Notes under the pieces: generated by a model
The model's input: only the letters and a program-made list of their open reading frames with translations
What the model was told of the DNA's origin: nothing
The model's database searches: none
Assembly (NCBI GenBank): GCA_946699065.1
Contig: CAMPDV010000358.1
Coordinates: 186,001-250,000 of the forward strand
Direction of reading: 5' to 3'
Length of the DNA: 64,000 bases
Source of the DNA: Loxodes magnus
Lineage: Eukaryota; Ciliophora; Karyorelictea; Loxodida; Loxodidae
Translations under genes and position numbers: made by a program
Shown here: piece after piece, positions 3,512 to 53,642 of the stretch
Layout of the letters: every line of letters starts with the position of its first letter
Position numbering within the stretch: the stretch's first letter is position 1

Positions 3512-6500
3512 ATGGACGAAATATAGAATTCACTAGTTTTTAATAGTGACTCTTCTTTAATTAATTTCAAAGAAGCTGCAAATTCATAGGAAAAGCATAG
3601 GCAGGTGCATTAAAATCTCCAAACGAAAGATTTGGAGTAACTACAAATTAAATAAGTAAACCTAATAATGAATTTATTAAGACAACTACTTAAAAATTGT
3701 AGTCAAAAACCGGAAAACAAATTCATACGCGTCCCATTAAAACTACTTAGGAACTCTCTTCAACGTGGATATTAATTGTAGCGTATTATGAAAGTGAAAT
3801 CAACCTATAAATAGATGAACAGATTAACCGCCTAAAATAATACCGCGAAAGATACGAAACGATTACCTAAGAAATCTTTCCAAAAATAAGATATTATCTT
3901 AGATAGTTAGAATTCAAAAGATATACCTTCAAATCCTAATTAAAATTCAAATAAAGATATCCTTTTATGATAGTCAAAAATAACATAAACTTAAGATTCA
4001 TTTTTGAATAATACTAATTAACAATTCTATTAAATTTCAAATAACGAAATTAATCAGAAATAAAATAATACTACTAATCCTGATAATTCAAATAATCATT
4101 ATTTACCTGATCTTCAGAGCAAACAAGCTTAAAATTAAACTGCTGATTTAAGAAATGTAATATAAAATCAAATAATTAATTAGTCTAATGAGAATTTATT
4201 TACCTTAGAAATAAAAGAACTTAAACATAATATATAAAGACTTATAGATAAGAACCAATAATTAAATGAAATGTTAATTAATATAAAAGCAAAATATGAA
4301 CGAGATATTGAAACATTGATAAGTAACTAAGAAATATCTAAAATATATTATAAAACTTATATAAATAAAATTTATTAGAAATATAAACAATTATAGAACA
4401 ATTTTTAGTCAATCAAATCTGATATATAGCAATATCACAAAAAAATGCTATCAAAATAACTAGTTCATAAAATTACTTAAACAAACTTCTCCACTTATTA
4501 CAGTAACTAAATAGTTTAAACAGATGAAATAATTAGTATATTTCAAGAAATTTAGATATAATAGAAAAACTATGAGAATTAAGTCAATTCAAAATATGAA
4601 ATATAATCTAATTAAGAGATTCAAATTGAAGCCAATGCTAATTAAAGCTTTACTTAAGCTTAAATGATAGGAGCAAATAATTCACTATGCCAAAACTTTA
4701 ATAAAATTAAAAATTTTACTTAAATTGAAATAGATAACTTTCTAAATAAAACTTAGCAAGGATATCAATAGACTATATTAGAATAGAACTAATATTTACT
4801 TCAACAAATTACCTAATAAAAAATAATAAACGAAATTTAACTCCAAGAGTTATATTCTTAATATTAAAAATTATAAAACTAAAATAAGTAATTTATAGAT
4901 TAAGAATAGAAAGCTTAAATGGAAATTTTAACTTTTAAAATCGAATTAGATAAGTAAAGATAATAAAAATATGAAATAAATATAGCTTTTCAAAATTAAA
5001 TTCTATTAAAAAATAAGGAAATTCAAATGTATAAAGAATTATTTTAGAATTAAATTTAACATACAAAAGAATTCAGTAATTAATAGTAATTTTAGAAGAA
5101 GTAATTTGCAGATGCATAAACTTAAACATTATATGGAAATATTTAAACAAAGGATAGTATTATCTAAACAGATAATATAAATAAATAATAAACAGCTTTT
5201 TTGTGTCAAAAATTTACTCAAACAAATATAATCAAGCAAGACAAGTTAATGTAAACTTAAAATAATTAATAGGAAGCATAAACTAATACTATTATAACAT
5301 AACATAATAACTAATACTGTCAAATAAAATTGCCAGATGAAGATTTTGTTTTACTATAGCATTAATATCACTAACTCAACTTAAAATTCATTTAAAGTAC
5401 CCAAAATATGTAGACACTTGAGATAAAAATAGAAGAGTTTTAAAAACTTAATTAAAATTTGAAAAAAGATATATTTAATTATTCTACTAAAAGATGAAAA
5501 AAAGATTAATAAAACTAAACAGATTCGATCGATGCTATTTATCAGAATTAAACCTTATCTTCCAATATTAATCTTAATATTCTTAAAAGGAAACATGAAG
5601 AAGAAGATAAAACAATTCCGCCAGCAAAACGTATGAGTAAACATAATAATAAAAAAGAGTGCGATTAAATAATATGTTATTTCAATCTGACTAGTCTATA
5701 ACTTTAAAAGTTTATTAAATCCGAAACTTGAAGACGTCCATAGTACGAAATGCACAATATATAAGGTAGATATGTCACAGTTACTTAAGATTTAGAATAA
5801 GGTACATGTGATAGTGTGAAAAGTAAAATTGATATAGATAGAAAGCTACTTAAAAAATATACGACGTAAGTAATATATATTTTGATACAATATTTTCATT
5901 AACATCCTGAGTATGGAAAAAGATTAGTACATATTTAGATTAACCAATAAGGATAGAAAAGCATTTGCATTTACGAAAGTGGTCTATCTGCAGGCTCGGA
6001 AAAAATTAGAAAGGACTAATAAATTTAAAAAATAAAGATGGGACATATAAATATTAATGGAATAGCGAGCAAGTGCTTGAATATTGAAGAATTTATCAGA
6101 GATAACAGTATAGATATTTTATCAATAAACGAAACCTGATAAAAAGATGACTTTCCTCCAATATTGATAAATGGATTTAAAACATATTTTAAGAACTCAG
6201 GAAAAGGAGGAGGTGTATGCTTAATTGTAGGAGAAGAATTTAATAGTACAGAAATACATATATAAGTTGAAAAAGAAATAAATAGATTCATAACAATTAA
6301 ACTGGATAATATTTTAATCACGTCTTGTTACATGCCTGATAATGGAAAAAGTTAAGATGTTAAAGATTTAGCTTATGAACAACTAAATACATTGCTGAAT
6401 TTATATAATGATAATCCACATATACTAATGGGAGATTTCAATGCTCTTTTATAAGGCTTCGGTGATAATCCTGAAAATGCTTATGATAATAACATTAGAC

Positions 6501-10930: not shown

Positions 10931-13282
10931 ATGTCAGTATAAAGAGAGTGTTTGTCAGCTTTAATTTTCACTAACCTAGATTGAGCTTTAAAAGAGTTTG
11001 GAATTAACAAGGAGAAAGCCAACCAACTTGTTTGCGATTTTTAAACTCTTTAAAGTATGGACTTTGTTAACTAAGTTAAAAAGAAAGTAATTAGACTTAA
11101 AGACTCCATGTCTATAACCTAAATATCGGAAAAAGTAGGGCTCCCTTTTAACGTTGTAAAATAGATACTTAATGAAACCTAAAAGGATAACCAAAAGGCT
11201 CAAAAGTAAAAAAGTAATCAAAATCAAGCATCTAAATAAGAATTTCCTTTACATTCTATCAAAGTAGAATAAATAGCTGAGCAGACTTAAATCTTTAGTT
11301 AAGCAAAGTAGCATTCAAAAACAGATAAGGAAGAGTAAGATTAGAAAAGAAAGGAAGAAATTTTTCAATAACTATTCGAAAATTTTCTCAAGATAGAAGA
11401 AAACGAAAAAAGCACAAAGAAAAGACAAAGAAAGGAAAAAAGAAAAAAAATAATTATTATACCTGAGTAAGTAAACCTTTGTAAAATTACAAACCTAGAG
11501 TAATAAAACTAAACAGCAGATACTCAAAAAGTAAGCCCTGATAGTCTTACTTTAACCTAAGAAATTAATAAAGAGAATAAAAATCAAAGGAAGAATACCA
11601 AGAAAAAATAAATTAGAAATGAGAGGATTAAAAATATCTAAATAGAGGGGAAAGAAATTGTTCGATTGACTAAAAGTGGAGTAGTCGTATAAGGACCAGA
11701 CTAAAATGAGCAGTTTATGTGCTTGTACTGTGATCAAAGTTGCAAAGACGAAGTAATTCTCTCGAAGCATTTCATTGATAAGCATCCAAAAGCAAAACAG
11801 ATACATCTCTTCTGTCCTTAATGCTAAAATCTAGGTTTTGAAAATATTTCTTCTTATAATTCTCATTTAGAATCGCATTAAAAGAAGGGAGATACTATTA
11901 GGTACAATTTGAAGCAGATAAAGTAATTATAGCTTATTCAGAGTAAGAAAATAACTTTGTAGTTCATTGAATTAGATTAGTGAGTAGAAAAAATTGACTT
12001 TTATGCCAACCTTAAAGGCAAATAGAGAACAGAAAAATTTTTCGGAAGAGATATGAATCAAGAGTATTCTAGTGATGAATCTATACTTTTAATAGAGACT
12101 CAAAAATACTAATGCACAGAATGTGAGAAAAGCTTTGGTGAAGAGGATGAGTTTGCTTTGCATCAAAAGAAACATGAAAAGAAAAATAAAAATTACAAGC
12201 TTAAAACTAACAAAAGCTTTCAAGAGCTAGAAAGAGAAAATACTACCTTAAGGTATGGAACTATTATATACAACTCGGATAATATTGCATTATATAAATG
12301 CAAAGAATGTGAAGGAATATTCAAATCAAACTCTAAGATACAAAAGCATTTTGAAAAGAAGCATCCTAATGCCCAGTTTAATATCGTAAAATGCTCAGTA
12401 TGCGATAGTTAATTTGTAAAGAGATGGCACTTACTTAAGCATTTAAAAAGACATAAGAGTGTAGAGGAAAACAATTAAGAAGTTAAATGTTAAGAGGAAG
12501 AAAAGCAATAAAAATTAGCTAGTGACATTGTAGAGAAACCACAAGTTCAGCAGCAAATAGAAATATAAGAAAATACTAAATAAGACAAAAATAATTAAGA
12601 AAAGATTGAATAAGTAAAAAATGTTCAAGAAAAGAAAGAATAAGAAGGATAAAAGAGTAAATCGCAAATTATTGAAATAATAGAGATCGAGGAAGAAAAC
12701 GATAAGCAGTAAGGAAATAGCAAATAAGAAAAAGACAGTGAAGACTTAAATTAGGACGAGAAGAAGATAAAAAATCTGGTTCCAGAGCAAGTTAAAAGCA
12801 TAAATTTAGAGATCAAAAAAGAGTAGTTGGAAAATAATTCCTTACGATAAAATCATTCATTTGAAATCATGTAAGTTAAGTAGTAAGAAGGCTTTAAAAA
12901 GTATAGAAAAGTTATTGATTTGACTAGAGCATAGGCTAATGCGTCTAACTAAGCATTTTAAGTGAACTAAGCAAACTTTTAGCCGTTAAATAATAGACAG
13001 CTTATTCCAGTGTAGAATAATAGATAGATGATGTAGCCAAATTTAGTGAATCAGTATCAATAAAGTTAGTACGACGCAAGGTATTAGCAGCAAAACATGT
13101 ACTATTCCTATTATATGCCAAACTATCAATAACGAATTACTTTTCACTTTATAAGTTTAATGTTTCGATTAAAATTAAAAGGTTTAAAATTCCTTAATAA
13201 GAAATCCTTTAACACTTAGCTTATTATCCATTTAGGCATAAAAATCGTTAAAGTCATTCACGAAATTAAAAAACTTCTATGA
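10931..13282 (+). CDS. C2H2 zinc-finger protein with five fingers (intact family member)
   Basis: The frame gives about 783 aa. Five C2H2-type fingers are visible: from Cys264 (CLYC...H), Cys295 (CPQC), Cys395 (CTEC), Cys457 (CKEC) and Cys488 (CSVC), each followed by paired His. The N-terminal 240 residues are basic and Gln/Lys-rich; the region after the fingers is a long Glu/Lys/Gln-rich, coiled-coil-like tail ending in a Tyr/Gln-rich stretch. This is probably a nucleic-acid-binding nuclear protein, but its target is unknown. The same family occurs twice more here, at 55748 (+) and 62050-64000 (-), both degraded. Trp18 is encoded by TGA and the copy at 55748 has TGG at the same position, direct support for TGA as Trp. 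The exact C-terminus after the NYQQ segment is uncertain. Confidence 0.85.
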
Positions 13283-25551: not shown

Positions 25552-28089
25552 ATGAAAAAAGTTTATTAAATGAACTAGAAAAAAAGTAGGAGATATTAAG
25601 ATTTAGTAGTAGACTGGAGAATGCAGATGGTAAATGGAGAAGAGTTTTAGAGATAAACTTAATTGGGAGAAAGTAATATTAAACAATTGGTAGAAAACTA
25701 TATTAACTGTTAGGAATCATAGCAGATGCTTAATGAAGCTCAGTTATAAATATCGGACAATGAAGTATCTATATGTCTTAAGGAACGATATATTTAGTCT
25801 ATTAACAAAGCTCTTGATTTACGAAGTAATAAGCAAGTTTTTGCAAAGATAACGTACTTTGAGGATGATGAAGAAATTTAGAATTATTATATAGAAGCTG
25901 CTTTAAAGAGGTAATTAGGAAAAAATGATTACTGAGATAACAAAATTTTTACAAGGGAAGTAAAAGCTTGAGTATGTGCTAATCAAAAATTATATATTCT
26001 AGCGCAGATATTAAAATTTAAGTGCTAAAATTCAAAAGTTAATAGTTTGGAAGCTATTTTACATCAGAAGAATAGTAATTTTACCCAAGATTAGCTGTGG
26101 AATCTGGTCTCTTAAATTCTAAAGAGTTTACAATAAATTAAATAAAAAAATTTCTTAATCCCAGTTTTAACCCTCGACACTATCTATGTAGATGACCAGT
26201 TCTAACTCGTATCTCTAGATATATTTCAACATAAACTTAGCCTACGGAAAGCTTTAACTAGAATAGAATACTAAATCTTTTATTAGAAGTTAGGGAATTA
26301 GAAGTTCTTATATGAAGATTAAAGGAACAAATACAATTCATGAGACCAAGATAAGATAGAATTTTACTGTCTTTACTCTTTGGTTATCATTATTATCAGC
26401 CTATTATTCAATAATGATCAAGAACTAAACTAGCTTGCTCATTAGCAATCTTCTAACTTTAACTTTGATAGTATTTTAACGAAATTCTAATGCTTCAGTT
26501 AATTTTAGCTTTTTAGATAATTATTCTAGAATCTATAGGAAAAATAATTCATAGCTAAGAAATGGAATTTAGATTACTTTTGTAAACAGTTTCAGAAAAT
26601 ATCCAATGAAGAATCCTTCTATTCCATTAGTAACATCGGGAATCAAAGTAAAGACTATCAATCTACACTTACTTAAAAGAAAGTAGCTTCAAAACGTTAA
26701 ATCAAATCAGAATTATCAAACTCTTAGAAGACTAAAATTTATAATCTTTTTAAGAAACGCCCAGAAGACTCTGAAATACTGCAGCAAAATAGTTAAAAAA
26801 TATAAGATATAAAAACTCAAGCTCCTCTTATTGTTAAAGATTAGAAATACTATAACTAGATAACAAATGATATAATAGAAAATAACTATAAGGATTAAGT
26901 TCATTACTAGAAATTTTAATTCAGTAAAGAGCACAAAGTACTTCTAAAAGGAATAGCTGCTTATTTTTCCTCAATGCCAGAAGACAGATAACCTAATGCT
27001 ACTTTTTACCTTTAATTTTTACAATAAATCAGTAAAGAGTTTCAATTCACCCAGATTAATATATGTAGCTACTTCCTTCTTTTATAAAGAATAGGATGAA
27101 TAGATTTTAAAAATGGATATTAGAATTCTCTATCTGTGTATGCTTTAATGGTAAAGCAACTTTTTAGTCAAGAAGATTTAGAAAAATACCAAATATACCT
27201 AGAAATTAAGTCTTAAGGAGGATGAACTTTTGACTTTAACCACTTTGCACATTTTGCAGCGTAAAATCCTGATATAAGTGAGATATATCCACACTAGATA
27301 AACAATGCCTATTAATTTCTAACGTAGTAAGCTAAACTATTTCAATCCCACTAAACTTCAAAGAAAAAAGTTGAAAATAATATCTACTTAGTTAAGTAAA
27401 TTAAGAAACAAAAGAGAAAGGCAAAAGATGGGAGTATTTAGAATTTGAAAACATATCCTAGTAGTAAAGATTTTGTTGTATAACTAATTTAAGAGAATGA
27501 TCTTATGCTAATTTTAAGAGAAGTCAATAGGGATAGATAAGTAGCCTTTATTATTAACTAAGGGTAAAATAATTAAAGAGTTTAGCTAGAAGAGATCTAC
27601 CAAGTCAAAAAAAAATTAACAAGTGCGATAATTAATAAAAAACTAGAAAATTATCTTAACAAAATTGTAGCTTTATTTAAAGGAGGAATTTTGCCAGTTT
27701 CAAAGCAGAAAGAGTTGCAAATATACGAAAATAATTAATAAAATGAGAACAATGATGTTAATGAAGAAAGCAACAATTAGAATGGCATGGAGTAGATCGT
27801 TCTTTCTATTACACAATCTTTTATGGAAGAGCTTTTTCAGTGAGTATATAAACTGTAATTTAACATATCAAAAGTCATTTCAGCGGTAAATAGTTTATCT
27901 TACCATACACTATTTTAACTAGCTCATCATAATCTTGTTATTTAAAACAGTTATCTAGATACTGATTCTGAAGGAAGTTAAGAAGATATAAAGAAATTGA
28001 ATGAAGAAGAGTTATAGAACTTCATTGATGTGAATAATTAATATTTTGATAGTTCGCAAAGCTCTTTCATGACTTAGACAAGACAATGA
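25552..28089 (+). CDS. Large protein with N-terminal pseudokinase-like domain
   Basis: About 845 aa. Residues about 60-260 follow the order of a protein kinase fold: VFAKI with the beta-3 Lys99, a helix-C-like Glu near 115, a hinge-like LYILAQIL, then SLEAIL and a helix E/catalytic-loop region (LWNLVSQILKSLQQIKQKNF, then LTLDTIYVDD). The HRD catalytic motif and the DFG metal-binding motif are missing (VLT and SLD stand there), so it should be catalytically dead; the kinase assignment is inference from motif order. The C-terminal 500 residues are helical-looking and unrecognised (for example SSMPEDRQPNATFYLQFLQ, GGWTFDFNHFAHFAA). The stop is taken at the TGA after SSFMTQTRQ; the next in-frame TGA is 28201. 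The start is the first Met after an AT-only leader. Confidence 0.6.
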
Positions 28090-29198
28090 TCTAACTTAAT
28101 TAAAAAACTAAATTAATATGTTTATACTAATTAAGTCTAAAATTTATTTTATTTTCAAACTCAGAAATTTAATTTATGTGTCTAAATTATTTTAAAGAAT
28201 TGAATAAAGATGCTACATCTTCAAGATGATTCTTTTATATTTCATCTTTAAAATTGAGGTTCTTAGACTTTTTATTTAATAGTGAATATTAGTCGTTAAT
28301 TCCTAAATTAATTTCTAAATTTTTTATTTTAGAAAGCTTTACCTTTCTGAGATTTCTAGTTTAAAATCTTTTTAGCTTTATTTAGTATAGTTCCTTGTTT
28401 ACTTTTCAAAATGACCTCCTTTTTATGCCTTATTTTATTATTTTTTTCTATGGCTGAAAATCAAGTCAAATTACTGTCCAGTTGGATTGATTCAATCTTT
28501 TTACTTTGTTAGATAGTTCTTGAATTTTTCTTCTCCTTTCTAATTTTAATGTCTTGATGATTAAAAGAGCTTTAAAATCTCCATTAGTTTGGTAGCATCA
28601 TTTAGTATCATGAAGAAAGAAATAAATCTACTATAAATGAACTCTCATCCATCTCGTAAGCTATCATCTGATGTTAATTTTTACCCTCATTTTGATATAC
28701 AAATCTATTTAATTATTCAGCAGTTTATTAAAGAGTATAACAAAGCATTCTGAATTATATAAGTAGATAGGTGAATAGCTTATAATATCTATAAAACACA
28801 GGATAATATAAAGCTAGTGGAATTATAATATTGGCAAGCTATATTTAATCTCCTTCTGTAAAAATATATCCAAAAATACTTTGTTTATCTAATTCCTTCA
28901 ATTCTAGTTAAACACATCCTAGGGTATAAAACAACAATATATTTCTTCAGAAGTTGGTGTTCTCTCTTAGCCGTTAAAATTAGTCTCTTAGCTTCTAATT
29001 CCTTGGATATTTCTAAGACTGGAAATAAAATAAATTTTAAACTCTCTGAATTGAATTAAAAGTGTATGAGTAAGCAGCCTCTTAGTTATTATTAAGAAAA
29101 TAACTCCTAAAGGTGGTTTATATTAAAATGGTCTTTAATTAATTAAAGGTTTTAATTTAAAGGAGTATAAATCTAATTTCAGATAAAGAAATTAAAGT
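28090..29198. other. AT-rich spacer
   Basis: No gene was recognised. Pyrimidine-rich stretches occur at 28240-28560. The last part is the upstream region of the coiled-coil gene. Confidence 0.35.
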
Positions 29199-33931: not shown

Positions 33932-35032
33932 AGAAAGGAAAAATTAAGACTAGAGCATCTTATTTAAAAAAGTTTAAAAAGGAATCTACTAAAATGCTGA
34001 AAATTAAAAAAATTTATTCTAAATCCAAATAAACAGAATTCAAAGTTATTGCTACTCTAATAAATCACCATAAATAGAAAGCATTGAATTAAAATCAAAT
34101 TTTTCCTTCAAGTTTAAAATAAATTTAGAATGGTATAATTAGTTAAAACTAAAAAGATTGCTAGCTTAACTTTTTAGATTAAATGCTTTATCTTCTTCTT
34201 TTTAGAAAACGGACTATCTTTCTCCTTTTATAATTAAAATGATTTCATATAAAATTATCTCTATCGAATTTAGTTTAAGATATATAATAAGTGAAACTAA
34301 TAATGGATCATTATGATGTTCATATTCTCAAATCAGCATTTTAATAAATAAAGATTATATATAAAAATTTTCAATTTTCTTTAATTTCTCTTTGCTTAGA
34401 TGTCTCTATCTTACTAAATAACTAATAACTATGAAAATAATAGAGAATACCCATAAATAATAAAAGAAGCTTAACTTATTAATTAGGATTAGTTTTAACG
34501 GATAATTGATTTCTCTATTCTTATTATTGTTATTTAATTAAATGATGGCTACTACTTGATAATAGGAAGATTTAAATCTAAGTTTAGAAATCATAGTTAG
34601 CTGATTATTTTCTAATTACTTTCTCATAAGATTATCTAATTAGATCTAGTATCTTCCAAGGGAAGACTGGATTTTATAGAATTAATATTCTTAGAATAAC
34701 GAAAATTCGACAATTACTGCTTAAAGCAATCTAATATATTTTAGCTTTAACAACAGTTCCAAAAATACAAACTCAAACACGTTAAATTTAATTTAGTCTT
34801 AAACTTATGAATAAATATAAAAATGATTTGCCTTAATAAGTTAAAAAGATAGTAGTTTTAGTAGAAAAATTAAATTTATCCTACTAGCAAATTAAATAGC
34901 TAGTCTTTTTTCTGTTTTCGTTACTTTAGTTAGAGGAAGATTAAATTTTTTATTTAAGAATTAATAATTTATGATGTTATTAGGTTTCCTTATTATTCTT
35001 GATTATTTGCAGTAGCTCTAGGTGAAATGTTG
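33932..35032. other. AT-rich spacer between convergent genes
   Basis: No gene was seen. It separates the rightward C2-like gene from the leftward glutamine synthetase gene and should contain both 3' UTRs. The glutamine synthetase frame remains open into it if no intron is assumed. Confidence 0.4.
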
Positions 35033-36279
35033 TCACTTGAACTTGATTCAAAAATTGCCAAGGAATTTACCTTTGATATTGATCCTAGAGTACTTTGCTC
35101 CATTATTTAGTAGTAGCTTTTGCTATTTAAAATATTCTCTGTCCACTATCTACAGATATTTGTGTAATAACTCTAAGCCTCATTAAATAGCTTGTTATCA
35201 AGGCATATTGTATCAACTAAGCAAGAACAAACTACATAGGGATCCATATTTGCTGCTGGTCTTCTATCTTCGAAATACCCCTTTTAATTTTTGAATGTTT
35301 CTACTGGAATTCTTACACTTGTGTTTCTACTTCCTATTCCATAAGAAAAATCCAAATAGTGAGCTGTTTCATGTTTTCCAGTTAGCCTTTATTCATTAGA
35401 AATTCCATAAACGTTGATATGCTTCTCATGTTCAACTTCTAACTTTTCAATAGCGCTTAAAATGGAAGCATAGCCTCCTTCTTTTCTCATTTCTTTTGTG
35501 GAAAAATTAGTATGTCCTCCTGCTCCATTTCAGTCTCCTGTCACTGGTTTAGGGTGATAAGATATTAAATAGCCTTGTTCCATAGCTACCCGCGCTAATA
35601 AATATCTAGCCATTCATAAATGATCTGCAGCTTCTATACCCTCACAAATACCTATTTAAAATTCTCATTATCCAGGCATAACTTCTGCATTTGTTCCGCA
35701 TATTTTAACACCAGCATATAAGCAGGCCTTAAAGTGATTCTCCATTATTTTTCTTCCAAAACAATTTTTAGCCTCGATTGAGCAATAATATAGCCCTTGA
35801 GGTTCTGGTGGGAATAAGTTTCTAAAACCAATAGGCCAGCCTTGAGGAGTCATTATAGTATATTCTTATTCTAATCCAAACCAAGGTTTAAACTTCTAGG
35901 CTTAATTCATAATTTGTTAGCATCCTCTTCTAGTATTCCAGGTAGTCGGAGTTCTATCATAATTTAAAGTTTCGCACAGAACTATTTTATTTGGATCTCC
36001 TCTAAATGGATCCTTGAAAATAGCAATAGGATGTAAGATATAATCTGAATCTTTTTTATCACTCTTCTACTTTTTGCCACTCCTAAACTTATCATTAATA
36101 CATGCTTCTCAATCTCCCACATCTTCTAGCTTCTCAATAGGTTTGAAGAAAACGCGAGTTTTAGATCTTATTTCAATATGCGACTTTCCAATCCAGACAT
36201 ACTCCACAATAACCGCTTTTTATTAAGGCAAATTTCTGTAATTTAATTTTTTGGACACTTTAGCCAAACTGGGAAACAT
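35033..36279 (-). CDS. glnA: Glutamine synthetase, eukaryotic type II (GSII)
   Basis: The enzyme makes glutamine from glutamate, ammonia and ATP, normally in the cytosol. The reading shows all the main GS signatures: WFGLEQEYT (metal-binding Glu), [28 protein letters not shown] (ATP-binding), [19 protein letters not shown] and [14 protein letters not shown]. Several Trp in these motifs are TGA-coded, including the one in PGQWEF. The protein is about 405 aa, roughly 50 longer at the C-terminus than typical eukaryotic GS. The 3' end is inferred: without an intron the frame meets no TGA for several hundred bases. A 29-nt GT-AG intron at 35042-35070 (or a 35-nt variant) brings in a TGA at 35033. 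Exon 1 is 36279-35071. Confidence 0.9.
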
Positions 36280-37525
36280 TTTTATCTACTGAACTTAGAT
36301 TTTATAATTTCAATTTCTCAAATCTGATTTAAAATTAAACTATACATTTAATTATTGAAATACCAGCTAAATCCTATTTACAAAATAATTTCCTTTTACT
36401 GATAAATCAGGCTATTAAGTAGAATTAACTTTCTACATACTTTTGCAAATATATCCAGCTTCTAAATCAAAGAGCGAGACTAATTAAGAATAAGAGAATA
36501 AATCTCTAAACAGGTACTTAATAAATAATGCCTATACTAAAGAAATAAAACTAATAGTGTAATCTATTGCATTAGCATTAAGTTTAGACTGGTTCTTAGT
36601 CTAGTAATTGCTTAATGTGTATCAAACTGAAGAGAATTAATAAGCAGTGTATAAGTATATTAAGCAGATAGGCTAATTAAAAATAAACTTAATTAAATGG
36701 TTAGGATTACTTAATCTTGATCTATTTTTCTTAATAAGGATAAAATCTAGGGGTTTTAATAAATGTCATTAATGCTTAAATTATAAAGACTAAGGATAAA
36801 TAACAAAGGTATTATACTAGTATATAGTTATTATTTAAAGAGACTAAGTATAAATTAGGGATTATATAGTTAAACTTGCTCTATGTAGCTAGCTTTTACA
36901 ATTTACTCATTTATAGCTTTATAATACTAAAAATTAAAGACATAATTATAAGAGAATTTATCCTTTCGTTATCTCTTTTGCTTTAGTCCTTACAAATAAG
37001 TTTGGAAAAAACTAATTTATGTAAGTTCTTAAAAGATAAGCCGATTTAAATATCTACTATACTAGTTTCTTAGATGCTTTTTAAAAGCACAGAAAGGGAA
37101 ATGCTATAATCTAAAAATAATAATGTGAAGTAGCTTAACTATAAATATTAGAGGTATATTAAAATAGTAATAATAGCTTCATAATATACTAGCATCTTTG
37201 CTAAAATTTAAATAGATAAGCAAGTAATTTATAAGAGTAATAGCATGTAGGTAAATTAAATTCATTAGTTATAGTTATAATCATAAATTTATTAGAATTA
37301 GTATATTAGTGAATTTAGATAAATTTGTAATAAACTGAAAAGAATAATAATAGATAGTAAAGATGTTAAAGCAAATTTTCTAAAGAGAAGCTATTTTTAT
37401 TTAATCTAATGTGAAGTTTCTCATAATTAATTAATAAAGCAAGAGTATTTGAACTAGTATTGTATAGAAGAATAAAATATGAAATTCTAAGTTTACTAAA
37501 TGCATTCTATATAAGTTTTTAGTAA
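36280..37525. other. AT-rich spacer
   Basis: This includes the upstream region of the leftward glutamine synthetase gene. No other feature is supported. Confidence 0.35.
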
Positions 37526-40116: not shown

Positions 40117-40851
40117 TTCATAGCTTTATAGTAAACGTTACAATTTTAAATAAATTAGTAAGTCACAATACTGAGATTTTGACTACATATCTCAATAAGA
40201 TAAATCAAATGGTAGTCACTTCTTTACTATACTATTTTAATAATTTAGTAATCATATGTCTTATGCTAGTTATCTACTCAAATATATCAAAATTTTATAA
40301 AGACTTGCTGAAAAAATTGAAAAAGCAGACATAAATTGAAGGATTATTATTATGTTTTTTTAATTTAATTAAGAAAGGATAAGAAAGATATGCTATAAAT
40401 TAAAAAAAGAGATAAAGACTAAAGAAGAGAAAAAATAAAATATTCAAAGTTTTAAAGAAGCTGGCTATATAAAACACTTAAATGCCCTTTATTCTAATGA
40501 TGATTAAACAAACCTATTTAATTGAAACCTGTTTATTTATTGTATTATTCAAGTTTAAGATGTTTTATAGATTTAAGAAGAAATAAGTTTAAGTTAGAAA
40601 CGAATTGAATTAATATCTTTTGATATTCGTTATACGTTACTTTGTATAATGTTTTTTATTTAAAGAAAGGAAAGATTTAAAATTTTACAATCTGGTAATT
40701 AATTAAATAGGGTAAAGTTAAATTTATATTAGACTGTATTAACAATTTATTATTATAGCTGATATTTTATATTTAGTTTAAAACGATAAGTAACGAGTTA
40801 AATAATTGAAGGTTTATAAGATGAGAACACAGACCATATTATAATAATAAC
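40117..40851. other. AT-rich spacer upstream of the SLC44-like gene
   Basis: No gene is supported. It contains the promoter side of the transporter-like gene. Confidence 0.35.
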
Positions 40852-42742
40852 ATGAGCACAAAGTACTAGGAACTTAAGTTCGAAGGCAAAACCATTTTGC
40901 CTAAATTCCGCAGCTGCAGTGATTTTATTTGTTTTGCAATTTTTGCTGTTTCTTTTGTTGGATTCTTATTCTTTACAGTGTATGGCTACATAAATGCAAA
41001 CATCGATGAAGTTTTCCATTCTTTGGATTCAGATGGGTTTTATTGTGGAGTAGATGAAAGATAAGATTATCCGTATATGTATAGGCCAACACCATAAGGA
41101 GAGGGAGAGTATTATTAAATCTGCGTAAAGGAATGCCCTTAAGAATGGTAATCAAACGTTTCTTGCTATACAAATTCCTATATTCCTGATTGCAATTTTT
41201 ATGAACTGACTAAAGGAGAATCATTCTATAATAGAACATTATAAAGAGAAAACTTTACTTCTGACTTACCTTTTACATATCCAAGTTAAAAAGATTGAAA
41301 ACATTAGAACTGTGTAGAAAATCCACTCAAAGCAGAAGAATAAATATATTTTCCAGATAAAAAATCGACTTCTGGAAATGCTTTTGAGGATGTTGTTGCT
41401 GAATTTGAATAATCATGAGATGTAGTAATGATTGTCTTAATGGTTGCTTTAGGACTCTCATTATTTTTTTTGGTTTCAATAAAAATATGTGGTGGGTGCT
41501 TCGTTTGAACAGTCATTTTTGCCATTGGATGTTTCCTTATATTATCGGGAGGATTTTTAATTTATCAAGCTACACAAGACAACAGTTAAGAAGCATAGGC
41601 ATAATGTTTAGCTTTGGGAATAATTTTCCTTATTGCTTTCGTTGTTTATAGCATAGTAATAGCATTCCAAATGCTTGAAATAAAGAGAAGCTTGTGCGTT
41701 TTAGATTCAATTTCAACATTTATCTTTCAAACGCCATTTACTCTCATATCAACACCACTAGCTTTATTTTGAATAGTAGTATTTACTTTTATTTGGCTTT
41801 TTACTGTTGTGTTACTACATTCTTAGGGAGCTATAGTAAAAGATGAAAACAATCCAATTTCATTTAAACATGACGAAATAGCTAAAACAGAAATAGTAGC
41901 AGTAACAATAATTTATGCCTGGATCCTTTTATTTATTTTAGAATCAATTGAGTTTATCATAGCGAGTTGTTGTGTACAGTGGTACTATACAGAAGAAAAG
42001 GATCAAATTAAAAGCTTCTAGCTATATTTATAGTCATGCAGATGGTATATTAGATAAATGGGTACAGTTGCTTTTGGCTCTGCTTTTCATTAAATATTCA
42101 GATTCTTTTAATGCTTTAATAGAAGCATGTGCTGTACACAGAAGAAAGAAGAAGAGGAAAAAAAAATCTCAAGTAGCTGCTTTTTAAACTACTGCGATAA
42201 AGGGGCTTATATTTAAGCAGGAATATTCAGTACTTCTTATTGTTAGGCAGGATAAGACTCCTTAAACTTAATTAACTAAAGCACTGGAGAATTCTTTACT
42301 GTTTAAGGGCTAGGGCAAATACTTGAATTTATTGGAAAGCTTTTTGTAGTTACAGTAAGTCTTTCAGTTGGAATTTACTTCATATCGGACCTATCAGAAT
42401 TTTCAGAAAATGTAGAATATCCAGCTGTTCTTATTATTGTAAGTCTTTAATACTTAGATATTCTTTGTTATGGCTTTAGTGATTTCGTCTTCTTTCTTCA
42501 ATTTGTTAGGCACTGGAGCTGATACTATGATGTAGTGCTATATAATAGATTACTTAGAAAGCTAGAATAAGTAATAATTAAATGAATGGACACCTTCAAA
42601 CTTACATGATTTCATGATAAATGCTAATAACATACGAGCAGTTGAAGAAGAAGAAAAAACAAAGAGAAGCAAATCCAAATATCAAAGCATAGAAGATAAG
42701 ACAGATAAACTAGTTGAGAAGTAGCCTCTATTGAAGAAATGA
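40852..42742 (+). CDS. Choline transporter-like protein (CTL/SLC44 family)
   Basis: Two exons (40852-42438, 42458-42742) encode 623 aa, a normal CTL length. The layout fits the family: one N-terminal membrane span (residues about 25-47), a Cys-rich extracellular loop (FYCGVDE, CVKECP), then about nine more spans. The diagnostic region is clear: MGTVAFGSAFHQIFRFFQCF, a Cys cluster, DKGAYIQAGIFSTSYCQAG, and after the intron SSSFFNLLGTGADTMMQCY. CTL proteins are plasma-membrane or organellar and linked to choline or ethanolamine uptake; the substrate here is inferred. The charged cytosolic tail ends in a Leu-Leu-Lys-Lys stretch before TGA. Skipping the 19-nt intron is required to join the last conserved blocks. 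Several membrane Trp are TGA-coded. Confidence 0.9.
42439..42457 (+). other. 19-nt GT-AG intron in the SLC44-like gene
   Basis: The sequence GTAAGTCTTTAATACTTAG interrupts a conserved membrane span. Removing it fuses VLII to IFFVMALVISSSFFNLL, which matches the family, and keeps both exons whole codons (529 and 95). Confidence 0.8.
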
Positions 42743-48534: not shown

Positions 48535-51500
48535 ATGAAAATCGTTCAGAAGCTTCTACTTCTAGCCTTGGTTCCTTTATTCTTAGGTAATGAAGTATTA
48601 ATTTTGAAGTCTGAGTTTTCTTTAAAAATTGATGAAAACGATTTGGAAAGTTATATTAAGGATAGCATAAATGTAACTACAATTACTCTGACAGATTAAT
48701 TTGAAGTAGAGTAGCAAGTAAAGCAATGAGTAAGAAATTCAACAAAGTCTAAATTTGTCTATGATATCACTAACTAATAATTTCTAAACTTACTCATTGG
48801 AAAAATCTGTCAAGAACTTGGAATTATTCATTTTTATATCAACTAAGAGGATTTTGACATCTCTTTTATTAATTCTTCTTTCAATCTAGTCCCTTCATCC
48901 TAAAATCAAAAAGATGCAACTAAGGAATTATTAAAAAATTTTGAATGATCTCAAATTAGCCTAATTCAAGATGATTCTGATAGCTTAGTAATGGAAACTT
49001 TAATGGATAAAAAGTTGGGTATAAAGCTAAGAGAAATTACTTCTAGTAGAAAAAGTTAAAAAGAGAATTGGAATGATATTAAAGGTACATTTAAAACAGA
49101 GGCAGCAAAAGTTTTTGTTGTAGAGCATGAAAAAGATTTACTACCTCTATAAATATTTCAAGAAGACGCAGATGTACTAGACTATTAATTGGTTTTAACT
49201 ACAAAAAGTAGAAAAATACACTAGTAGCTAAGCAGATCATTCCTCTAAAGCTATTAATATCTAGATGGACTAGTATTTATAAGTCCATAAAAAGATTCTA
49301 ATTATTTCAAATTTTCTTAGCAATTATTTGAATTGTGCGCGTAAGATCAGACTTCATAGTCTGATAAGTTAAATTGCATATATGACTAGGTTTATCAATA
49401 AAAATTTTGATTATACAATATATAAGATTAAGCTGTCAAAGAATTAGGCAGCATCAGTAAAAATAGTACTTAAAACATAGAAGTTTTTAGCAGCATTTCA
49501 ATGTTTATGGGAGAAAAGGCGAGAGATCAAATAAATAAGTTAGATAGTAATAATAAGATTTTAATTTCTTATATGGATTAAAAAAATAACTCTGACAATT
49601 CAAATAGTGAATGAATTACTACTATTATACAGGGAGCAGAACTAGCATTTTAGTATATAAATTAGAACAAAATAAATGGAAGCGATTAAACAGTTCCTCT
49701 GTTAAATTATAAAATAGAAAATTCGGGTTATTCAGTAGGTACTTCTTCTAATTATACATAGTAATAAGAAGAATATCTATGAAGAAACTAAAGTTAAGTT
49801 GTTGCATCTCTAACACCATATACCTCAGGTGTAACTAGAGATTGATTAAAAATTAAGAGCATATATAAAGATAGCAAACCTAATATTGGAGCAGTTATTA
49901 CACTTGCAGAATTTTCGGATAAAGGAAAATACAAAAACTTAGTAAGAGTAACAGCTTCAGATAATATAGCAGTCTAAGCAATATTTTTAGCTATAAGAGC
50001 CTTTAATTGAAAAAAAATAAAAATCTTAAGAGATGAATCTAAATGGTCTGAAGGCTTATATAATTTTACGCTAGAATAAGCTCACAAATATGATATTGAA
50101 ATTACAAATATAAACGAAGATCATTAATTTGTAAGTATCATCTCTAATCATATTAAAGAAGGATAAGATAGCAAATGAAAGCCAGCAGCATATAAATTTT
50201 ATAAAAGTAATGCTGCTGTTGGTATTTGTGCATGTTACGCAGATGATGCTTTTGAAATATTTTCATATTTATAAGACTTGGGAGTTTAAGCTGGAGAAAT
50301 TAATTGAATAGCAAACGAATGAATATAAACAAGTAAAGTAAGACCATTATATAATGAATCAAAACTAAAAAAGGCCAATAAAGTTATAAGAGGAACTATT
50401 CAACTCAATTTTTAAAGTCTTTCAGGTGAATTCGGATAAGTTATAAAGGAAAACTTAATACAAACATATGGATAGTATAATTGAATGGCTAATTTCAATT
50501 TTGATGCTACATTTTTAGCTGCTAATGCAATATAAAATTTAAACGAGCAAGGACTAAGTTTTAAAGATCCTGATTTATTGATGAATACAATAAGAAATAC
50601 TTCTTTTATAGGTGCTACAGGATTTGTTTAAATAGATAAATTGGGAAATGATAGATTAATGAAAAATTTTGATGTCTTTAATATTTAGTATAATAAAACT
50701 ACTTAATAATGAGAAGATGTTTAAATAGGCTTATTTTGTATGGCCTGCTCAGAAATTATGAATTTAGAAGAAAAACAAATTTTAATGTGGGGAAATGGAG
50801 TTTCCAAAGACTAGAATGACTGAACGGAAAGCCCACCAGACACCTTTCAATAAAAAAATTGCAAATATAGAGATCAATAAATAGAATATTTATAAAGTGG
50901 AAAGAGATTTAGAAATCAGCATCTCTCTTACATTTATGGAGTTATTCTCATTTAAATAGCTTTAATGTCTTTATTTCTAGGCTATTTCCATTGAAGAAAC
51001 TATAAATTTTAACTTCTTAAAGATTAGTATAATTAAACTATGCAGAAGCTTGAAAATAAATAACAATTAAAAAATAAAGAAAGTAATGATTAGGAGGATA
51101 TAGATGAAGGAGAGTAAAAAGAGAATGATTGAAGAGAGTAAGCTAAGATTGAATACAATGCAACAGATGCCATAAAAATTTTATGCATAATAATAGAATA
51201 ATTTTAATTCTTGGCTCTTGGGGTTGATTTAAGTTCATATCACTAAAAAATAGAAGACTTTTTTAATATCTTCCTCTTTGATGTTGAAAAGATGTTCCAT
51301 ATAGGAAATTAGACGTATTTAGTGTTTTGAATACTTTCATAAATTCTAGCTATTATATGGATACTTTCGTCAATAATAGTATTATTTGGATTTTAAGTAG
51401 AAAAAAATAAAATAAAGTATATTGTAAAAATAGGGTTTTGGATTGTTCCAATAATGTAGCATGTTTTCTTCATTCCAATAGTTTGAATATTGTACGACAT

Positions 51501-53642
51501 TTACTTTTGTGATCATATAATTTATTTTAATCAAAACTAAAATAGGTACAACTTTCAATCTTTTATGAAACATGATTGCTAGAATAAGTGTTGGGAAGGA
51601 GGGCATTTGGCTTTAGTTTTCTTAAGTTCAGTAACTTTATTGATATACGTTCCTTTAGTTTGCTATTTAAGATCTCTGTTTGAAAATACTCAGAAAGTGC
51701 ACATACAACAAAAAGCTTCATTTTTATATACAAAGACCTTTATAATGCTACTATTTGTAGTCCTAAATAAAACTTTGGGCTCAGTTGTTCCTTAACTATA
51801 TGGAGCTATTTACCTTTTAATAACTTTTTTCTTTTTACTTGGAGTTTGGTACATGAATAACGCTTACAATTTTGAATTGGCTGATGCTCTTCAGGTTTTA
51901 TCTCTTCTGCTAATTTTATGAGTTTGCATTTTTGCTTGAATTTTAGGATTTTGGGACCGAAACCAACATTATTTCATATGATTGCCAATACTAGGGGTAT
52001 GTTCTTTCTTAATACTGTTTTTTTGGACTTTTTTTATAGTTAAAGGAGAAAATAAAAAAAAATATATTAACTACTTGAAGACTCTAAAGACATAAACAGA
52101 AAAGTAATTCCGAAGTTATTTTGTAAAAACAATAGATGAATCAGATAAAAAAGAAAGAGATAAAAACAAAAGACTACAGTAAAAGAGATTAAAAAAGTCA
52201 AATAAAATAAAATCTTAAAGAAAAAATGGTAAAGGCAAAGAGGAGAAAGTTGAAAATTAGGAGATTTAATTCAACATTACTCTATAAAAAAGTAAATGAA
52301 AATAAGAGTAAGATGGTGTTCAAAATTAAAAGGTATAAGGAGTAATTGATTACAATTCTTGCTCTTCAACTGAAAAAAGTAACTTTAATAAAAAAACAAA
52401 AGTTTAAGAATATTGTGAACTGCGGGAGTGCTTTTCATGCAATAAATTAGTAAATACTATTGTTATATAATGTAATCATTTCATGTGTCATCCACTTGTG
52501 TAAGAGTAATCAAATTTATTTGAGATAAGATGCTTATAGAAGAAAAAATAAAGTGAAGGTTAGATAATATGCTTTAAGTGCTATTAAAAAAAATTATCGT
52601 AAACTAAATTAATAGCCTATGCAAATTTATTTAAGAGCTAATCAAAATAGGCTGATTTCACAGAAATAAAAGAAAAAGGAATTATGGGATTTTCAAATGA
52701 ATCAAAGAAACATTGTATTGTAAATGCTACTCTATAATGCTTATTTTCAATTCCAAATTTGGTTGAAAACCTTCAATCAGCAAATTTTTCATTAAGTATA
52801 AGAAAGTAAGAAAATAACATTCACTTCATAAGTAACTTAAAGCAAATATAGTAAGAAATGAATGAATATTGGCAAGATGGATTTCTGAATATTGAAGGAT
52901 TTCATGACTAAGTAGATAATTTATAATTGATTCCTTAAAACAAAGATTGCTGTGAATTTATAAAATAGTTCTTTAAACAATTGATTAATGAAGAGATTCT
53001 TATGTATGATTATATGATAAATGGAGAAATGTCCGCTGAAAAACATTGGAAACTTTGGTAATAAAAGAACTCAAGTTTAATCCATAAACTTTTTGGTGGA
53101 TAATTTCAATTACACCTAAAATGTATAAGCTGCTAGCAAAACACAATTGCTTATCATGCCTTTATGGATATTAATCTTAAAGTAACTGGCAATAGCCTCA
53201 AAGAATGCCTCAAGCAATTTTTAGAAGATTGGAAAGATTCTTAAGCACCTTGCAAATTATGCCATTAATATATGATAAAGAAGTAAAAAATATTTCATGC
53301 TCCAAAAGTTCTTCTTATCAGTTTTGAAAGAGCCATTTAAAACCTCTAAAGAACTAGCAAAGTAGAATAACTTGTTGTATTAGAGTTAGAGCTGTAGATA
53401 GAATAGTAAATATTTTATATAGAAATCTAAATGTTGCTAAAATTTATGAACTATGTGGAGTAATCATTCACAAAGGAAACCTTTAAGAGGGTCACTATGT
53501 ATGCTATGCAAAAAGAAATGAATTGTGGTACTTTTTTGACGACAACAAGTTTAGATAGTAAGTTTTAAAATTTAGAGCAAATATAGAAGAATTTAAAACT
53601 TCTCAAGCTTATATACTCTTTTATAAGGAGAAAACTATTTGA
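48535..53642 (+). CDS. ANF-receptor-like multispan receptor fused to a ubiquitin-specific protease
   Basis: Exons 48535-53405 and 53423-53642 encode 1,696 aa. In order: signal peptide (1-18); a large ectodomain like the ANF/type 1 periplasmic-binding fold (for example AFNWKKIKILRDESKWSEG near 492, with many N-glycosylation sites); a membrane span at about 800-820; a charged coiled coil; six to eight spans between about 928 and 1170; a basic linker; a zinc-binding segment (CFSC at 1299-1302, CNHFMCH at 1313-1319, CFKC at 1346-1349); and a USP catalytic domain. The USP has the Cys box HCIVNATLQCL (Cys1394), zinc pairs CISC and CKLC, and the His box GHYVCYA (His1648) with FFDDN. It would be a receptor whose cytosolic tail removes ubiquitin. 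A TGA at 52297 in the linker could instead be a stop, but the downstream part then lacks a Met before its zinc motif. Confidence 0.75.
53406..53422 (+). other. 17-nt GT-AG intron in the USP domain
   Basis: The sequence GTAAATATTTTATATAG must be removed to bring the conserved USP His box (GHYVCYA) into the same frame as the Cys box. Total exon length is then an exact multiple of three, ending at TGA 53640. Confidence 0.8.

Follow-up and report, generated by a model that had tools for sequence, protein, structure and literature searches.

A predicted receptor–deubiquitinase family in the karyorelict ciliate Loxodes magnus, with an intact catalytic triad in one clade

Kinases, cyclases and lipid kinases are known as built-in enzymes of receptors, and the membrane-tied ubiquitin-specific proteases (USPs; peptidase C19) USP30 and USP19 have a single anchor and no known ligand-binding ectodomain. 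The G-protein-coupled receptor (GPCR) bigrams join a seven-transmembrane (7TM) receptor to a PIPK, INPP, AC, PDE, DEP or TKL domain, with a further type bearing an N-terminal aspartic protease (main text of PMC6033456), and choanoflagellate GPCR-kinases join a receptor to a kinase (PMC12716839, in part). The word ubiquitin is absent from the main text of the bigram paper, as are ubiquitin and Loxodes from that of a ciliate GPCR survey (PMC9960496), and no receptor–deubiquitinase fusion was found in the literature searched, which missed most subscription journals and preprints. Here, we describe a gene of the ciliate Loxodes magnus, located in a 64,000-nucleotide stretch of contig CAMPDV010000358.1 (the window; positions 186,001 to 250,000 of the forward strand, assembly GCA_946699065.1), which is predicted to encode a receptor with a multi-pass membrane part and a C-terminal deubiquitinase. 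This combination was not found described, and it would be a variant of the receptor-enzyme theme. Like the GPCR-bigrams, the predicted protein unites a receptor and a cytosolic C-terminal catalytic domain in one chain; unlike them, its membrane module is not 7TM-like, and the USP type is not among the domains listed in the main text of that paper.

In Loxodes, TAA and TAG encode Gln and TGA is read as Trp or stop, with UGA as the sole stop, and the macronuclear assembly of L. magnus (706 Mbp) has an intron mode of 17 bp (PMC11441545, in part). Under this karyorelict code (code 27), the gene starts at the ATG at 48535 and 21 in-frame TGA codons are read as sense, the final TGA serving as stop. 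The re-derived gene model agreed exactly with the coordinates, frame, 17-nt intron and residue numbers of an initial annotation made from the sequence, and its features are as follows (aa, amino acids):

48535–53642 (+): whole gene, a single gene of two exons encoding 1,696 aa (code 27; paralogues)
48535–48591 (+): hydrophobic leader or predicted signal peptide, aa 1–19 (hydropathy; hydrophobic leaders also in L003–L011, at the corresponding position)
48592–49569 (+): Venus-flytrap-like module 1, diverged, aa 20–345 (ANF_receptor 3.5e-06 at 26.7 bits, barely exceeding the curated cut-off of 25.4 bits)
49570–50739 (+): Venus-flytrap module 2, aa 346–735 (ANF_receptor 2.4e-29; mGluR1 ectodomain 1.9e-05)
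50923–50997 (+): first predicted membrane span, aa 797–821 (hydropathy)
51163–52053 (+): polytopic core of about eight further predicted spans, aa 877–1173, with a conserved C..DC...CW loop (alignment, hydropathy, own-genome matches)
52054–52428 (+): Lys-rich, predicted cytosolic linker, aa 1174–1298 (hydropathy and charge; no indel versus L003)
52297–52299 (+): TGA for residue 1255, decoded as Trp (TAA in L003 and L004; other sense codons in L005–L011)
52429–52581 (+): RING-like Cys/His segment, aa 1299–1349 (family pattern CxxC..CNHFMCHPL..C..CxxCY; zf-RING_5 in four of six members)
52681–53639 (+): USP catalytic domain, aa 1383–1696, spanning the intron (UCH 2.9e-34; USP8, USP15 and USP2 chains of the PDB)
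52714–52716 (+): predicted catalytic Cys1394, codon TGT (aligned to the active-site Cys of USP8 and USP15)
53406–53422 (+): 17-nt GT..AG intron, gtaaatattttatatag (same position in seven of nine paralogue models)
53493–53495 (+): predicted catalytic His1648, codon CAC (alignment)
53538–53540 (+): third predicted triad residue, Asp1663, codon GAC (alignment)
53640–53642 (+): stop TGA (GC content drops to 0.14 over the following 100 nt; the preceding 25 codons are free of TAA and TGA)

Exon 1 alone matched both ANF_receptor (5.1e-34) and UCH (4.4e-14) in Pfam, and the fusion was found repeatedly in the L. magnus genome (705.7 Mb, 7,843 contigs). A search with the exon-1 protein returned 42 rows, in 11 of which (L001, the window copy, to L011) the ectodomain runs into the USP in one frame. 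The same architecture is thus present in at least 10 further places distributed over 7 other contigs, the 11 loci lying on C358 (the window's contig), C1510, C297, C1450, C611 (three), C653, C44 (two) and C685. The window copy and L002, L003 and L004, and L009 and L010 each look like allele pairs. Fused members fall into subfamilies A (window copy, L002, L003 and L004), B (L005–L011) and C (L012, L014, L015 and L017, about 38–39% identical to the window protein), and trees of the membrane core and of the USP did not fix the position of the third (support of 0.30 in the membrane tree). The intron recurs as a 17- or 16-nt GT..AG intron at the identical position in L003–L008 and L011. When the Cys/His segment plus USP served as query, the best 37 of 46 candidates comprised 25 rows representing 20 close places and 12 rows of distant USPs. 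Eighteen of the 20 close places directly adjoin a receptor match; at another (C1450:46091, L043) merely a degraded piece of the end of the core adjoins, and the last (C297:164496) was classed by its likeness to L043. Among the matches listed, the 12 distant USPs (22–31% identity) have no receptor match within 100 kb. Receptor-only relatives also occur (C82, C1, C19, C60 and others; 28–32% identity), consisting of flytraps and membrane core, and in L018, L019 and L020 the 0.4–0.6 kb behind the core encodes a polar tail and no USP.

The initial annotation had voiced one main doubt, namely that the TGA at 52297 could be a stop, in which case the receptor would terminate there and a separate USP gene would follow downstream. 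The site is real, UGA is the only stop of the code (PMC11441545, in part) and the USP half contains no TGA codons; nevertheless, several lines of DNA evidence favour Trp. At this codon, the closest paralogue (L003) as well as L004 and L011 have TAA (Gln), while AAT is found in L005, L006 and L008, AGA in L007, AAG in L009 and L010, and TGA in L002. Over the stretch aligned to window residues 1177–1378, the window copy has one TGA, L011 two and L003–L010 none, and since eight of the ten other fused copies lack a linker TGA, the fusion is independent of the doubtful codon. The sequence following 52297 has a GC content of 0.24–0.27 (0.24 in the first 100 nt) versus 0.14–0.18 after 53642. Moreover, TGA and TAA are depleted for about 20 codons ahead of true stops in Loxodes (PMC11441545, in part), yet TAA occurs 4 and 10 codons before 52297. 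The TGA side of this rule does not discriminate, because the 25 codons ahead of both sites are free of TGA (the last TGA upstream of 52297 is residue 1149), which is equally what a true stop at 52297 would show. The first in-frame Met past 52297 is residue 1317, within the Cys/His segment. Finally, the window copy and L003 differ across the gene by three indels (3, 18 and 3 nt), all multiples of three and none between 51119 and 53859, versus 18 indels in the 1.5 kb upstream (besides the alignment end gap), three of which are multiples of three. Two separate proteins are therefore a most improbable explanation; as far as DNA allows, the decoding of TGA 52297 as Trp is settled, and the receptor–USP fusion is established at the DNA level.

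The domains proposed by the initial annotation were all recovered, i.e., a signal peptide, an ANF-receptor-like ectodomain, a polytopic membrane region, a Cys/His segment and a USP with Cys1394 and His1648. Since aa 20–345 and aa 346–735 gave separate ANF_receptor matches, the ectodomain resolves into two flytrap modules, of which the first has diverged. The resemblance to the ectodomain of mGluR1, a class C GPCR, lies in the Venus-flytrap module, with a common stretch around SDK..YK..RV..SD; unlike class C GPCRs, the window protein has two tandem flytraps, no 7tm_3 and a C-terminal enzyme domain. Between flytraps and membrane (aa 736–869), no Cys-rich Pfam domain was found, and GABA-B receptors likewise have none (PMC12716839, in part). 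At least 116 ANF_receptor matches were detected in the genome. As a side observation, the DNA of flytrap 1 is 97–100% identical in most 30-codon stretches between L005 and L006 and between L007 and L008, and that of flytrap 2 about 70–90%, as if tandem copies swapped segments and diversified the ligand-binding module; with dN/dS (the ratio of nonsynonymous to synonymous substitution rates) of 0.43–0.47, there is no sign of positive selection there. Flytrap 2 also seemed hypervariable when L003 was compared with L004, but this was rejected as an artefact, two one-base indels shifting the frame over about 100 codons.

In the membrane part, hydropathy averaged over seven copies gave one span peak at aa 797–815 and eight within aa 879–1168, with a predicted cytosolic insert between the first span and the remaining core. 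The stretch on its C side (aa 1173–1290) contains 33 Lys/Arg versus 14 acidic residues, and a loop with three Cys lies on the predicted outer side. A leader, an outside ectodomain and nine spans together place the predicted C-terminus in the cytosol. The C..DC...CW motif and other invariant positions are common to nine aligned members, for which Pfam returned no family (MASE4 at 0.23 in one of nine, not significant); neither 7tm_3 nor any other GPCR family matched in any of the nine at E up to 1, and a profile search of the PDB returned no chain up to E 10. Given these results and the approximately nine spans, a class C GPCR identity of the membrane part was rejected. At least 123 matches to the core were found in the genome, fused copies included, so the core is part of a large family unrecognised by Pfam and a candidate for a new receptor membrane domain of protists.

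The Cys/His segment follows a conserved pattern (CxxC, CNHFMCHPL, C and CxxCY) over six members. The best zf-RING_5 match was 2.9e-4, the window copy not being among the four members matched, and a longer stretch matched in two of five members (best 0.044); the nearest PDB chain was the RING of RNF168 (E 0.18, not significant). A RING finger binds zinc through eight ligands (C3HC4) that are spaced for a cross-brace, and in comparison the segment conserves CxxC, CxH, C and CxxC with a Leu at the sixth ligand position. It is thus RING-like in sequence, with the sixth ligand displaced, and a candidate RING fold. A ZnF-UBP identity was also considered, as phmmer aligned the Ubp8-type chains of 3m99 and 3mhh (yeast Ubp8) over query positions 6–396, the Cys/His segment included; it appears less likely, as Pfam returned no zf-UBP and the resemblance to RING is better.

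When spliced, the C-terminal part matched UCH over profile positions 7–254 of 254, indicating a complete fold. The nearest solved USPs (USP8, USP15, USP2 and USP36; E 9e-19 to 9e-14) share with it the UCH fold, the Cys-His-Asp triad and the two CxxC of the fingers; unlike them, the window USP ends a receptor, has an extra residue before the Cys and belongs to a family in which other subfamilies have lost this Cys. Both L003 and L004 retain the Cys together with the His and the Asp, although the USPs of L001, L003 and L004 are 11–12% diverged. Asn1388 lies six residues before Cys1394, a one-residue insertion compared with USP15 (the canonical oxyanion Asn being five before the Cys), so activity is plausible but not given. 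USP53 and USP54, which have no known receptor part, likewise have an elongated Cys loop with an upstream Asn, of a sequence that differs from the window copy. They were annotated as inactive because conserved residues before the His are missing, yet are active on K63 chains, and activity was lost when their Cys loop was replaced by the common sequence (PMC12037411, in part). The third triad residue is variable among USPs (PMC10867860, in part).

Purifying selection acts on the USP of subfamilies A and B, judging from dN/dS values of 0.30 (L001/L003), 0.28 (L001/L004), 0.28 (L005/L006), 0.39 (L007/L008), 0.49 (L005/L007) and 0.25 (L007/L011). Over flytraps, membrane part and USP, dN/dS was 0.22–0.54 in six pairs, a range that leaves out L003/L004 (frame-shift artefact) and L001/L004 (kept for the USP only). 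The L008 model stops at the contig end, about 12 residues early. In L009, the acceptor of the conserved intron is AA, and L010 translates identically there, so the L009/L010 model is unreliable around aa 1595–1620, which touches the USP dN/dS of L007/L009. At about base 6250 of the locus, counted in reading orientation, these two thus contain a small intron without an AG acceptor, and because of this loss their product may be a truncated USP. L012, L014 and L017 share the position of a frame change within their USP, which suggests that the subfamily C USP may be decaying.

Our preferred explanation, to which we give a rough probability of 0.5, is a receptor–deubiquitinase family in which one clade is possibly active, the others are pseudo-deubiquitinases and a ligand would drive the USP. 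The sequence itself shows the fusion and its conservation across a family, an intact triad in the window copy and a USP under purifying selection. From the leader, the predicted chain runs through two extracellular flytraps (the second mGluR-like) and about nine spans to a cytosolic RING-like segment and the USP. A small ligand in flytrap 2 would alter the packing of receptor protomers, and this repacking would, via the membrane core, change the accessibility or the geometry of the USP in the cytosol; we infer in this way the extracellular-ligand control of deubiquitination put forward in the initial annotation. The USP would then remove ubiquitin from its own receptor or from the receptor's complex, and thereby set receptor residence at the membrane. 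With the enzyme anchored to the membrane, such self-deubiquitination governing receptor lifetime would be the simplest outcome; signalling by action on other proteins is just as open. In paralogues with Ser instead of Cys, the fold would bind ubiquitin without cleavage, as a non-catalytic partner or decoy. Class C receptors function as dimers, and by analogy Cys and Ser protomers might pair.

A number of observations weigh against this explanation. Fusion, ligand control and activity are all read from DNA, and AlphaFold runs on single window sequences gave no usable model (pLDDT, the predicted local distance difference test, of 36 and 53). In L001/L003, the linker (dN/dS 0.82, 29 changes) and the Cys/His segment (1.04, 22 changes) appear near-unconstrained, the Cys/His segment of the remaining pairs giving 0.22–0.56. 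Before codon 1255, Trp is encoded by 20 TGA and 9 TGG codons, and after it by 0 TGA and 5 TGG (Fisher p 0.007), and seven other copies counted lean likewise; the Gln codons of the window copy show no such difference, and we cannot explain that of the Trp codons between the gene halves. Within the USP, the Cys loop of the window copy lacks the G-N-T that usually precedes the Cys (versus USP15). Moreover, Cys retention is confined to the window clade (L001, L003 and L004): it is Ser in all seven subfamily B models (TCC) and in L012, L014 and L017 (AGC), and three subfamily B copies have also lost the His (Asn in L005 and L006, Lys in L008). The protease function ascribed to the USP by the initial annotation therefore stands as a possibility for the window clade, whose activity is plausible, and does not extend to the family in general, activity of the subfamily B USP being very unlikely. 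TCC and AGC are each one step from TGC and two from each other, so an ancestral Cys was probably lost twice.

These substitutions, together with the altered Cys loop and the purifying selection still acting on the fold of the Ser clade, would also fit a receptor whose USP, in the window copy too, just binds ubiquitin and would thereby function as an adaptor, be it a sorting signal, a decoy or a partner in dimers. We regard this as a serious if tentative alternative: the retention of the whole triad at the observed USP divergence speaks against it, as do the degraded copies L041 and L043, which also read ..KKHC.. at the Cys site, and the failure of a sequence-based "inactive" label for USP53 and USP54 (PMC12037411, in part). 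That the locus is a class C GPCR joined to a USP, with a membrane part still coupled to G proteins, appears improbable, since the mGluR1-like ectodomain and the cytosolic C-terminal enzyme, placed as in GPCR-bigrams (PMC6033456, main text), are countered by the failure of nine members to match any GPCR family (E up to 1) or PDB chain (E up to 10) and by about nine spans with an insert behind the first. Although degraded copies exist, one of them on the window's own contig, an assembly chimera or a dying, functionless copy is as improbable as two separate proteins, given the same junction in 10 other places and the purifying selection. Beyond the preferred explanation, the family might constitute a class of receptor enzymes in which a small extracellular ligand directly gates ubiquitin editing at the membrane, with one chain combining a deubiquitinase and a segment of RING-like (ligase-type) character, and with Cys-less paralogues as non-catalytic partners, comparable to pseudokinase receptors beside receptor kinases; we consider this rather unlikely.

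Degraded receptor–USP copies with several frame changes lie at C358:97500–104500 (L041, about 80–90 kb upstream of the window), C62:61000–64500 (L042) and C1450:45000–47500 (L043). Many clustered USP matches with open reading frames of about 330–350 aa were seen on C1431, C365, C1234, C3033, C4067 and others, the USP family being apparently expanded. Four of the five neighbouring stretches scanned in the window matched Pfam: 456–1769 (–), haem peroxidase; 10931–12976 (+), C2H2 zinc finger; 34972–36468 (–), glutamine synthetase; and 40849–42741 (+), choline transporter. The fifth, 25600–28095, gave no clear Pfam match, and none of the five is obviously tied to the receptor.

The fusion could be argued from DNA despite the ambiguity of the sole stop codon, via paralogues without that codon. 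If the preferred explanation is true, a ligand would directly control the turnover of receptor or cargo, with no need for adaptor proteins. Moreover, the family offers a natural series, from an intact triad, through Ser for Cys and the additional loss of the His, to receptor-only relatives, which makes the question of whether catalysis or ubiquitin binding alone is needed directly testable.

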